Assembly: GCF_964204645.1 (NCBI RefSeq)
Contig: NC_134025.1
Span: forward strand, 8,065,001-8,129,000
Source of the DNA: Tubulanus polymorphus
Taxonomy: Eukaryota; Nemertea; Palaeonemertea; Tubulaniformes; Tubulanidae
Reading direction: 5' to 3'
DNA length: 64,000 bases
The notes beneath the pieces are model-generated. The model searched no databases, was not told the origin of the DNA, and worked only from the letters and a program-made list of their open reading frames with translations. This document shows, piece after piece, positions 1 to 15,525 of the stretch. Numbering within the stretch: the first letter of the stretch is position 1; each line of letters begins with the position of its first letter. Both the position numbers and the translations under genes were made by a program.

Positions 1-35
1 GATATCATCACACATTTCCATCTTTTCTTCCACAG

Positions 36-1720
<1,685 letters not shown>

Positions 1721-2033
1721 AAGGATCATCAGATGTGGCTACAATACCTCATACTAGTTATTCACATAGTTAAAGCTCCCAGTTAAAAGATGAATGTGAT
1801 TTCATTGGTACTATATAAATATTTTATTTTTTTTTGGATAATATAATACACATTCTACATACAGTAAACACAATTGATTTTGTCAAGTTGAATTTATGGA
1901 TTATTTCAATTTCAATTTGAGTATTCGTCGCAATGGCTGATAGTCATCTGCTTGCATCATTTTACGGCATTGAGCCTCGAAGTAGGATTTGTTCTACATA
2001 GAACAGTTTGCCTCTGATCTCACAATACAGCGG
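1721..2033. other. Convergent 3' spacer between DDX11 and COMMD10
   Basis: AT-rich sequence that must hold the 3' UTRs of two converging genes. No ORF, repeat or RNA gene is visible, and no clear AATAAA was found for DDX11. Confidence 0.6.
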
Positions 2034-5000
2034 TTAACTCAGATGATCAATTTCACTCTGAATTTGTTCCAACTGAAACAGAAATATTGTGATAATAATG
2101 CGATCTTTACAATGAGATGTTTGCAGTTAAATGTAGAAAATACTTGTACCTGTGTATAAAATGCGTAGAGTTCTGAATGAGTAAACTCCATACGTATATG
2201 TTCTTTGTCCTGAAATGTGCAAGAACATCTTCAATGATTATAATCCAAATCCACCAACTCCAGATGTATATTCAAGTTCATACCTGTTTTTCTTCATCTT
2301 TAATTAGCAATTCAAATAAAGCGACTGGCAGTTTCGTTTTTCCTCTGCTGGCTTGAGACATTTGAATGTGTGATCGCCATTTCACTCCATCTAACTATAA
2401 CACAAAATTATAAAACCTTAAAATTTTAAAACCAAGTTTACACTATAGTATGAATTTCATTTTGAGTACCATTAATTGATATAAAGTATATACACCTGTT
2501 TCTTAGAAATTGAACGTTGTCGTAGTTGATCAACAACATTTCTGGCACTGTTCATCCAAGCCTCAACTATGACATTCACCTTGAAATATTTACAATCATA
2601 AATCAATTTTCACTTCCAAAAATAAGTGTCAAAAGGCAAGTTGGAATCGGGGAAAAGTCAGGGATACTTCTTTAGAAAAGTCAGGGAATTATCGGGGAAT
2701 TTTATAAAAAGCTATAAGTCAGGGAAATTTGTTGATTGCTGGATCTCGTGCAAAATCAAACAGTTTTGCCAATAGTTACAAATTAAGAGGTGATGAAAGT
2801 GAAAATGTACCTTTGATTCATCCAATTCAATTTGTTGAAGCTGCTGAGTTAAAACTGCTGGCTTTGCCGTATGATAAGCAGCCTAAAAATACATCCACAC
2901 CAATCAAATTTAGAATGAAGAACTGAGATTGAAATGAGGACTACGTTTGATTGTGGCAATCCACCAGGTGTCACTAGTGTGCATTTAGACAACAACCCCT
3001 GGATTTGAACCACAAAGATCATTTTGAGTTTATCAAGTTTAGCGTACCGAGTTTTCGTACCGACATGCATCTAGTGGGTTTAGCAGTTTTCATAAGTCAG
3101 GCCTACCTGTTGAAGAAAGAATTCTAGTGTGGTCAGAACCAGTTCGAGTTCTTGACTTGTTAAACCCAAAGCAGACTCTAATTTCTCTTCCTCTTCTTCA
3201 CTGAAGGAACGTTCTTCCTAAAACAAAATCCAGGTACACATGATGCCATTCATTTATAACAGACAGATAATTAGTGATTTCAACATTTACCCTCTCATGT
3301 AATTTCTGCAATATCCTTGTGAGAAGCAATGGAAATTTCCCATCGTGTAAACCATTTATCAAAGAGACGGCTTTCTTAATGCTGTAAAAGTGATAAATCA
3401 TGATGATTAAAATTGAGCAATAGATCTGATATCTACGAGAACAAAGGGGCCTTGAGTCCAAGTGAAGATCAAGAACTACACCAGCATTCCCCTAGTCCAG
3501 TTAGCCATTTTTTCCAAAAACTAGGGGTCCAGGGACACCATGCCCACTTGGGAAGTGGTTTCAAATGCTCAACAATCTAACAATTTCAATATTCAAAGCC
3601 CCCTGGTGACCATTTACAAAAACCAATGACCTTAAAACTCACCACAATCATAGAACATGTCAGCAGCTACGATTTTGTAATTGATTGTGATAACAAAATA
3701 TGCCTCGTTACCAATTTAATATGGAAATACTAAGTCATTCTACTATTCAACGCCCCCTGGTGACCATATTCAAAACCAATGACCTCGAAACTCACCACAA
3801 TCATAGAACATGTCATGAGCTACAACTTTGCAATTGATCATGGTAACAAAATATGCCTAGGTACCAATATAATAAGGAAATACTAAGTTATTCTACTATT
3901 CAACGCCCCCTGGTGACCATATAGAAAAACTTATGTTCTTAAAACTCGCAACAATCATAGATGATGTCATGAGCTACAACTTTCCAATTGATTGTGGTTA
4001 CAAAATATTCATAGGTACGAATATAATAAAGAAATGCTAAGATATTGTATTATTCAACGCCCCCCATATACGAATTCCAATTACGGTACCTTGAAACTCA
4101 CCACAATCATAGAACACGTTATGAGCTACAACTTTCTAATTGATTGTGGTAGCGAAATATGCTTAGGTATCAATATAATGTGGAAAAACTTTTTCCCACT
4201 TACGAATGAGTACTGGTGACACCAAGATGGCCGCCAATTGCGTCATAATTGGCTGATGAAAAATACCTGTCTCAGGTATAAAATATCCCTTTCCAAAGAA
4301 CACCCATCACAAATTGTAATGAGAAATGGCAAACCAGTAGGAAGCTACAGGACTCAGAATTCGGGCCAAAATTAACATTTTTGGGCACTAAAAAGGTCAT
4401 AGGACGGCCATCTTGAGTCCGACCGACCCAATTTTTGTTATGTTGATGGGCCCTGGGGGGATTCACATATATCCGAAAGATCAAGGTAATTGATCAAAGC
4501 GTCTTCAAAATTTCCCTCAAAAAGTTCAAAAATGTGTAAAAAGTGCTGATTTTGGCGAACAACAATGGCTGCCAGTCGGCCATCTTGATTCTGACAGGGC
4601 CAGTTTTTGGGCTGAAGATGTGTCTAGGGTAGATACATGTGTAACCCAAATAGCAAGACGTTACCTTGAAGCATCTACAAAACTTCCCAAAATAACTGGA
4701 TTCCGTCTACGGACGGACGGACGGACAAACGGACGGACGGACGGACGGACGGACGAAAAGTGAACGCAATAGCCCGCTGGGACTAAAGTCCCAAGTGGGC
4801 TAAAAAAAGAAGGGGAACCCAAACAGAATGGCTGGTATTCATACAATCATCCCACTTCACCCATTGCTGGAAGTGGTCGTATCCACAGTGCTCTACAATC
4901 CTAGTGTGTACTGAAGCTAAGGTTCTTAGTGACCCCTACCCACCAGGCACCAGGCAGTGGTAGGGCCATCAACCGGAGATGTAGTTTGATTTGAAGGCAA

Positions 5001-6870: not shown

Positions 6871-6937
6871 ATTTCAAACACCTTTCCCTTCTTTGACATC
6901 GGCTTGCTTCAAGTGGAACTTCCTACGAATTAGCTCA

Positions 6938-8750
6938 ATGATGAGTGTCTCTACTGCTATATTATATGATGCTTTTACAAATCTATGTGAGAAATTTGAA
7001 GAAGTTCTTTCCATTGCTCAAAACCATGCAAAGAGTAAGTAATTGTCAATTGACTTTTAAAACTTCTATGTTTGTTGCATGGTCGATTTAAGCTCTCGAT
7101 TTTGTTTCTTTATTACACTATTTCACTTGCAGCATCTGTTGAAGAATTTGGCTCTAAAAACTTCGTCAGCGTTTTACAATTGATCAATTTGTATGCCAAG
7201 TTCTTTAAGATGTAAGCACAACAAACCGTTACGTTTATTACTACCAGGGTACTGCTGTAATTTCTTAATTTCAAAGTTGCATTCATTTATTACTATTTCA
7301 GAATTGGTGTCACATCAAGGGATGAATTTGATGAACTGATCAAACAAAATTACAGGTAATTTAGAAATCTGAAAATGATTTGCTTTCTCAATTTTCTCCA
7401 GTTGGAAAATCTATAATTTTGATCTGATTTTCAGTTATGTTCAAATCAGAGATGCAGCTGATCATCTGTATGATGTTGAGGTTTGTTCACATAATTTTCA
7501 GATAAAGAATAGGCCTAACATCCAGTTTCTTTAAAGATGTCCTCAAAAATTCTTTTCTTGTGTACCAGTAGTCACTTGGTTTTCAGTGACCACTAAAAAA
7601 TAGCCTAGAATATAACCATTAAGCTAAAAAAATGTGTTTCTTTTACCTGATTGTGGATCAGTTGATGATAAACTGGGTATACTTCTAGGGAAGAATCAAT
7701 TTTGATAGAGTCTCCCATAGATGAAACCAGCCCAGTACTGGCTTCAAATATTTAAGTCTATCACTGAAATTATTTCTAGGCTGAATATGACGAGTTTCTA
7801 AACAGTTTAGATAAAGCTTTACTGCTCTCTTCAAGTCTGAGGAAGCTGAATATTGGAGATATTTTGCCTGAAAAGATCCCCATTACAGATGTGCAATCGA
7901 AAGAGGAGTTAGACTTGAAAGAAGTAATAAGTTCACAGAACTGTCTACTAGTGCTATTACGTCATTTTGCATGACTTCCATGACGTGACCACGTGGAACA
8001 ACTTCATTCTAATAAGGTGCACATTCTATTTTTCAGCCTATCGTTTAGGTATCATCTGTTTTGCATTATAGTAGTTTCATATTTGTATTCTGTTGTTTCA
8101 GGATGAAATTGAGGCCCGGGGTCACCAGGTTGTTATTCTATCATTTGGTGCTATAGAAGGGGCGGAAATGTGGTATAACGAAGTCAAATGTCAATTTAAA
8201 ATGTATACAAATCCTACACGTGAGGTAAAGTGGAATGAGAAAATAGAATTTCTTATCATCTTCTCTTTGTTTCATACGTTATCCATTTTGTCTGTCCAGA
8301 TTTACCAAGTTTTTGGATTACCGAGGACGTTCAAGGTATGGTATGAACATGAAGAAAAAGATTTGTGTACATTCTTTAATTTCATTTTATGCAAAAAGCA
8401 CAATGTTCATTTCTTGTTTCATATTCAGACCCTCAATTTGAAAAGTTTGATTTGGTATGCCGAGCAGGTAGCTGGTGATAGACAACTCCTTAAACCATAT
8501 GAAGGAATCAAAGATGATACTTTCCAGGTACCACATTTGAAAAATCATTTTTTTTCTATTTACATAATTGGCTAATCCCTCTTGATTCATCCGTTTGATG
8601 GCCTTTCTATTACAGCTTGGTGGTGATTTCATAGTAGATCATACTAGTAAGGTTACCTTTGTCTATCGTAGTAAGACACCACCAGATAGACCAATTATTG
8701 ATCAGATTTTGCAAGCTATGGGACCAAAGGTTTGTATTTTTTTTAGATAA
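6938..8750 (+). CDS. SELENOL: Selenoprotein L (peroxiredoxin-like, U-x-x-U redox motif)
   Basis: Thioredoxin-fold, peroxiredoxin-like-2 (AhpC/TSA_2) protein. SelL is a known family, reported in aquatic animals, with two selenocysteines able to form a diselenide. Exons: 6938-7034, 7133-7211, 7302-7355, 7435-7480, 7780-8016, 8102-8224, 8300-8335, 8429-8527, 8616-8750. The joined frame has only two internal stops, both TGA, at 7972-7974 and 7981-7983, giving RHFA-U-LP-U-RDHV (residues 157 and 160), exactly where the family has its redox pair. Residues 1 to about 115 are a helical N-terminal region; the redoxin fold follows, with VVILSFG, YQVFGLPRTFK, GGDFIVD and SKTPPDRP. About 301 residues. The C-terminus is ambiguous: exon 9 may read through to TAA at 8748-8750, or splice at 8729 to 8827 and end KKQ-stop. 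A normal gene finder would break this gene at the TGAs. The precise subfamily is my recognition, not a search result. Confidence 0.85.
7972..7983 (+). other. Two in-frame TGA selenocysteine codons (U-L-P-U)
   Basis: TGA CTT CCA TGA in exon 5 occupies the C-x-x-C position of the thioredoxin fold. The frame is open for 64 codons before and 11 codons after within the exon, and continues in phase across the next four junctions. Confidence 0.85.
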
Positions 8751-8863
8751 AAACGGAAGCCAACAATTACATTTCCATGCAAGGCCATCTTAGACTGACT
8801 TAAGGTAACTGATGCGTCTTTTTTAGAAACAATGAATACTAAATCAACAGGTTATTGGCGATT

Positions 8864-8932
8864 TTATTTTCTGAAGAGTGTATGAAAGCGCTAGGACAAA
8901 GCCTCATGACTTCTAGAGCTGGATGGAAATAA
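8864..8932 (+). promoter_or_regulatory. Candidate SECIS element in the selenoprotein 3' UTR
   Basis: The 5' quartet ATGA at 8882-8885 is followed after 12 bases by AAA (8898-8900) in the apical loop, the spacing expected for a SECIS; the 3' quartet is GGAT (8921-8924), fitting NGAN. The upper helix pairs 8887-8896 with 8911-8920 (one G.A mismatch, one wobble). A lower helix pairs 8864-8871 with 8925-8932 (TTATTTTC/GGAAATAA, one G.T). The internal loop is lopsided (10 bases on the 5' side, none on the 3' side), which lowers confidence. Confidence 0.6.
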
Positions 8933-9029
8933 TCTCACACGAAAGTATTTCCCATTAACCTTCTGATTTTGTCATTTGGTTGTGATATCAATGAAGATGA
9001 ATATATTTGTAAAAGCAACATCTTGTTTT

Positions 9030-9035
9030 AATAAA
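9030..9035 (+). terminator. AATAAA polyadenylation signal of the selenoprotein gene
   Basis: Canonical AATAAA about 280 bases after the stop codon and 100 bases after the SECIS candidate, so a SECIS-containing transcript end is plausible. Confidence 0.6.
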
Positions 9036-10113
9036 TTATAAATTTTGATACTCGATATCTGGATTAGTTTCTTATTTCATGGCTGAATAAAGGCTCATCT
9101 TGTTTCTTTCTACATATTAATTTTGGTTGATAATGAATAATCTAATTGTGTATAATCTGAATTGGAAAAACTATTGTTAGAACTCCATTAAATAATTGAG
9201 TTAAGATCTGACTGGGACAAGAACTAATTTTAACTCGAGAGATGACTTGCACTCACAAATCCTGATAGATTCTGATTGATCCTGGTAAATGGAACACACA
9301 ATTATGAAACCTGGTTCACTTGTAATGCTAAGAAGCAATTCAGTAAACTCCTCTCAACTAGAATACTTTCAAGTCAACAAATATTAAAACCATTGTAACA
9401 AAATGTAAATTAAATTCCATTTTCTAATTCAAATTATTGCCTTAGTTCAAAAATGACTGCTCCCAATTGATTCAGTCTGTTGTACTATATCCAACTTCAA
9501 AGCTTCAAGAACACAAACTTCACCCGAGTGGGCTAAAAAGCTAATTGACGAGTCAATGAGTAAAATAACCTCGACATTTATTCATACAATTGGTAACTAC
9601 ATTCCAGCTCTTGAAAGTTCACTTCTCGAAATATAAGCTAACGCAAAGTCATTCAGATAGTTATCATGGCGCTCAAATATAATTTATATGCATTCAAAGC
9701 AATAAATAGTTTTAACAACAATCATTAAGAATTCCAGGATACTAAGGATTACACACAACTGAATTGGGTTTTTTGAAAAAATACCATTAACATACATGTA
9801 CTTTCATTGTTCAATCGATCAAAATGCATTTAACATATATATTTGAATATTGCACTTAGTCTAAGAGTTACAGTACTTGAAACTTAAAAAGCCACACGAT
9901 ATACTTCATACCATAACAGGAATAAAAGAATACATGTACCTCTTAGAATTCATGACATTAAACTGAATATGGTCTTAAATATCTATGTACAATTTAATTC
10001 TATCCAATAAATATATGTTTTGATATCCAATAGTTTTAGGGCAACAGTATGCGAGTAAATTTTTCTGGCGATGAGACAATCACAGAAGATAGCACACATA
10101 TAAGGCAGATTCT
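9036..10113. other. AT-rich spacer and SEC23 3' UTR
   Basis: No convincing exon or RNA gene on either strand. The right-hand part is probably the SEC23 3' UTR. A short CCCGAGTGGGCTAAAAAG fragment of the repeat module near 4.8 kb lies at about 9523-9540. Confidence 0.5.

Positions 10114-15525
<5,412 letters not shown>

Follow-up and report, generated by a model that had tools for sequence, protein, structure and literature searches.

A SelL-type gene with two in-frame TGA codons in the nemertean Tubulanus polymorphus

Two TGA codons stand inside an otherwise open, spliced reading frame in a stretch of 64,000 nucleotides of the Tubulanus polymorphus genome (the window in what follows), which raises the question whether they are read as selenocysteine (Sec, U) or mark a gene whose active site has been lost. 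SelL is among the few proteins that have been reported to form a diselenide, and papers citing the original study (PMC2397514, PMC3316567, PMC3473315) refer it to Shchedrina et al. in 2007, who reportedly described the family. An ordinary gene predictor would probably split or truncate a SelL gene at its UGA codons. Here we describe the structure of the gene, its relatives and the Sec machinery of the same genome. We are almost certain that it is an intact animal SelL, which adds one more member to a family already known.

Gene structure and the two TGA codons

Joining of the exons yielded a gene on the + strand that spans window positions 6938-8835 and comprises ten coding exons with 297 codons (Table 1). 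The joined frame runs from the ATG at 6938 to a TGA at 8833-8835, all exon borders are canonical AG/GT, and the only internal in-frame stops are the two TGA codons of exon 5, which lie in the context RHFA-U-LP-U-RDHVEQL. The initial annotation had placed two TGAs as U-x-x-U in an exon at 7780-8016, and both the coordinates and the number of in-frame stops proved exact. The clean frame that it described was likewise recovered, but its count of nine exons was not, as we arrived at ten with an inferred last coding exon of 9 nt. If the ninth intron were retained, the frame would end a few codons later, near 8750. Both TGAs are therefore internal whether this intron is spliced or retained. The contig that holds the window is chromosome-sized and belongs to a genome of 268 Mb; introns and neighbouring genes point to an animal, and a search for COX1 gave no match. 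The known distribution of the family thus gains a correctly modelled gene from an animal genome of chromosome scale.

Table 1. Positions of the SelL gene features in the window and of related loci elsewhere in the genome (prefixed C1, C3 or C7).
Feature	Position	Strand	Remarks
Coding exon 1	6938-7034	+	start ATG, tandem ATGATG; open frame, GT donor
Coding exon 2	7133-7211	+	AG/GT borders, frame kept
Coding exon 3	7302-7355	+	AG/GT borders
Coding exon 4	7435-7480	+	AG/GT borders
Coding exon 5	7780-8016	+	U-x-x-U; 237 nt, 79 codons, symmetric phase 0-0, AG...GT borders; aligned to bacterial UxxU homologues
First TGA, predicted Sec, residue 157	7972-7974	+	TGA at same place in L044, L046, L052, L057
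Second TGA, predicted Sec, residue 160	7981-7983	+	TGA at same place in L044, L046, L052, L057
Coding exon 6	8102-8224	+	AG/GT borders; in bacterial alignment
Coding exon 7	8300-8335	+	AG/GT borders
Coding exon 8	8429-8527	+	AG/GT borders; start of QLGGDF at its end
Coding exon 9	8616-8729	+	conserved QLGGDF (begun in exon 8) and P.DRP.IDQ motifs
Last coding exon (inferred)	8827-8835	+	9 nt, K-Q-stop TGA; acceptor AG at 8825-8826
Candidate SECIS core	8882-8923	+	AUGA, 12 nt, AAA, 10-layer helix with one G-A mismatch, NGA
tRNA-Sec gene, copy 1	C3:4932292-4932377		81 bits, anticodon TCA
tRNA-Sec gene, copy 2	C1:10220108-10220193		81 bits, anticodon TCA
GPx gene (L014, L026)	C3:1374350-1376111	-	in-frame TGA, VNVASK-U-GLTEKNY; positive control for SECIS
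PRXL2B-like gene (L024)	C7:2809340-2810820		in-frame TGA at first active-site position, RRFG-U-QLC-RNYS

Family assignment and bacterial homologues

For the family searches Cys was substituted for U. The protein scored 133.6 bits against the NCBIfam model NF040769 (SelL_rel_redox, 'SelL-related redox protein'), for which the curated cut-off is 120 (E 5.5e-39). The Pfam domain AhpC-TSA_2 (PF13911) matched with an E-value of 4.8e-14 and a score of 53.1 compared to a cut-off of 27, and AhpC-TSA matched too. The SelL family proposed in the initial annotation is confirmed by the NF040769 match, by the peroxiredoxin-like domain, by bacterial UxxU homologues and by the Sec machinery present in the same genome. 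The nearest solved structure by sequence was PRXL2B (prostamide/PGF synthase, PDB 9us9), whose CxxC aligns on the UxxU of the window gene. The N-terminal stretch of about 112 residues (window 6938-7840) lies outside every Pfam match and upstream of the domain shared with bacteria. That this extension gives the animal protein a partner or a localisation not described for the family seems unlikely.

We scanned 84,980 prokaryote genomes for the pattern HF[A/G]-TGA-x-x-TGA-R-[E/D] and obtained 81 stretches, four of which are SelL homologues with U-x-x-U in register. Two of them belong to Chloroflexi (L044, L057), one to Dehalococcoidia from an ALOHA sample (L046) and one to Acidobacteria from groundwater (L052). 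They share 28-35% identity with the window protein over 154-183 amino acids (E 4e-23 to 1e-27), and SelB scored above its cut-off in all four genomes. Unrelated genomes thus carry a SelL homologue whose frame is open apart from the two TGAs; since the TGAs were required by the scan pattern, this is shown for the homologues found and not for relatives in general. The initial annotation had named other residues at these sites in the closest homologue as evidence against its reading, and what we found were homologues with U at both sites. HFA-U-LP-U is kept in three of the four, as in the window, and the occurrence of ULPU both here and in Chloroflexi suggests that the site is strongly conserved. 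Moreover, the alignment extends from exon 5 to exon 9 and includes QLGGDF and DRP.IDQ, and the exon model is supported by this extent and by the conserved motifs. A short stem-loop lies 3' of the second TGA in the bacterial homologues.

A search with the single protein returned no relatives from prokaryote genomes, and an alignment search returned none from viral contigs or phages. The plasmid search gave one haloarchaeal CxxC relative with 26% identity.

Selenocysteine machinery, candidate SECIS and alternative readings

The genome of the window encodes the components of Sec insertion. Besides two tRNA-Sec genes, we detected exons of SepSecS, a match to domain III of eEFSec (E 2.4e-37) and exons of SelD/SPS. 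As positive control we used a GPx gene that contains an in-frame TGA; its SECIS is clear, with AUGA, 12 nt, AAA, a ten-pair helix and GA. The PRXL2B-like gene on C7 carries a UxxC and represents a SelU-type selenoprotein; a pattern scan revealed no convincing SECIS within about 5.7 kb downstream of it.

A SECIS search of the 3' UTR, which had been suggested as a check, gave a divided answer. The best candidate between 8700 and 10400 starts 46 nt past the stop codon and reads AUGA-AAGCGCUAGGAC-AAA-GCCUCAUGAC-UUCUAGAGCU-G-GA. Its spacing is that of the GPx SECIS: AUGA and AAA stand 12 nt apart, the helix has ten layers and a single base precedes GA. Sites of such quality are expected about 0.005-0.007 times per 270 nt and 0.015-0.02 times per 865 nt of similar sequence, a looser geometry having been counted because the strict one was fixed after the candidate had been seen. 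The canonical spacing thus stands on one side; on the other, the folding energy was no better than that of shuffled sequences (z +0.82, compared to -2.75 for the GPx SECIS) and Rfam gave no SECIS match in 6900-10400 even at an E-value of 10. Rfam SECIS_1 had no match over the whole genome and missed even the clear GPx SECIS, so the Rfam search is insensitive here. The candidate is probably the SECIS of the SelL gene. Another AUGA, at 8991, has a good lower helix but was discarded for a helix II that is weak and too long.

How might the two TGAs arise in a gene that is not a selenoprotein gene? The gene could be a decaying Cys-type member of the PRXL2/SelL-related proteins in which both active-site Cys codons (TGT or TGC) have mutated to TGA. 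Each such change takes one base only, and the weakness of the SECIS candidate would fit as well. However, the frame is otherwise intact, its splice sites are canonical and conserved motifs lie 3' of the TGAs, and the same two codons are TGA in the homologues from Sec-using bacteria. Because unrelated bacterial genomes carry both TGAs in homologous genes that are otherwise open, chance is excluded as their source. The initial annotation had considered two decay mutations at exactly these codons unlikely; here chance is excluded by homology and not by counting. Decay is accordingly an extremely improbable reading.

Alternatively, exon 5 may normally be skipped, in which case the main product would be in frame but without its active site and the TGAs would never be translated. 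Owing to the symmetry of this exon the frame does survive its loss. Yet the family's most conserved motif lies in exon 5, the exon aligns throughout with the bacterial proteins, and a product without it would lose the core of the fold, which makes regular skipping very unlikely.

We therefore return to an intact selenoprotein gene, for which the following mechanism can be proposed. UGA 7972 and UGA 7981 would both be decoded as Sec by tRNA-Sec and eEFSec, guided by a single SECIS in the 3' UTR, for which 8882-8923 is the best candidate. The predicted product is a peroxiredoxin-like protein of the thioredoxin fold with about 297 residues. By analogy with the family, its active site U157-x-x-U160 could form the diselenide that has been reported for SelL, and may cycle between selenols and diselenide in thiol/selenol redox chemistry.

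Comparison with known families and genomic neighbourhood

SelL is described as a two-Sec family with a diselenide that occurs in fish, invertebrates and marine bacteria (PMC2397514), and one SECIS is reported to serve both Sec residues (PMC3316567). A survey found SelL in five of six invertebrates, namely a sponge, Trichoplax, Nematostella, Capitella and amphioxus but not Lottia (PMC3473315). It was also identified in Ciona from ESTs (PMC2874816), and UxxU Prx-like proteins occur in marine metagenomes (PMC2398784). The window gene resembles known SelL, a family of aquatic animals and marine bacteria, in its peroxiredoxin-like domain and in two predicted Sec residues arranged as UxxU; where known SelL has one SECIS in the 3' UTR, the window gene has the candidate described above. 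No tested feature differs between them.

The bacterial SelL-related proteins of NF040769 (L044, L046, L052, L057) share the domain over its whole length with U-x-x-U in register. In contrast to the window gene, their frames are mostly shorter (192-211 codons in three of the four) and have no introns, and decoding proceeds by SelB, presumably with a bSECIS just after the UGA. The PRXL2/SelU proteins, among them PRXL2B, are related in sequence and have their active site at the same position. However, they are characterised by Sec or Cys followed by a resolving Cys (CxxC or UxxC), whereas the window gene has UxxU with TGA instead of Cys at the second position, and the UxxC gene on C7 is a separate locus.

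Several neighbours of the gene were recognised. A helicase with a Helicase_C_2 domain, DDX11-like, lies at window 1-1730 (+), a COMM-domain protein similar to COMMD10 at 1900-3400 (-) and a Sec23-type protein at 10130-12600 (-). Window positions 3470-4810 contain repeated blocks of 'cgccccctggtgacc' as well as a simple repeat of the GGAC type, after which comes 'gctgggactaaagtcccaagtgggct'; together they are probably a dispersed repeat.
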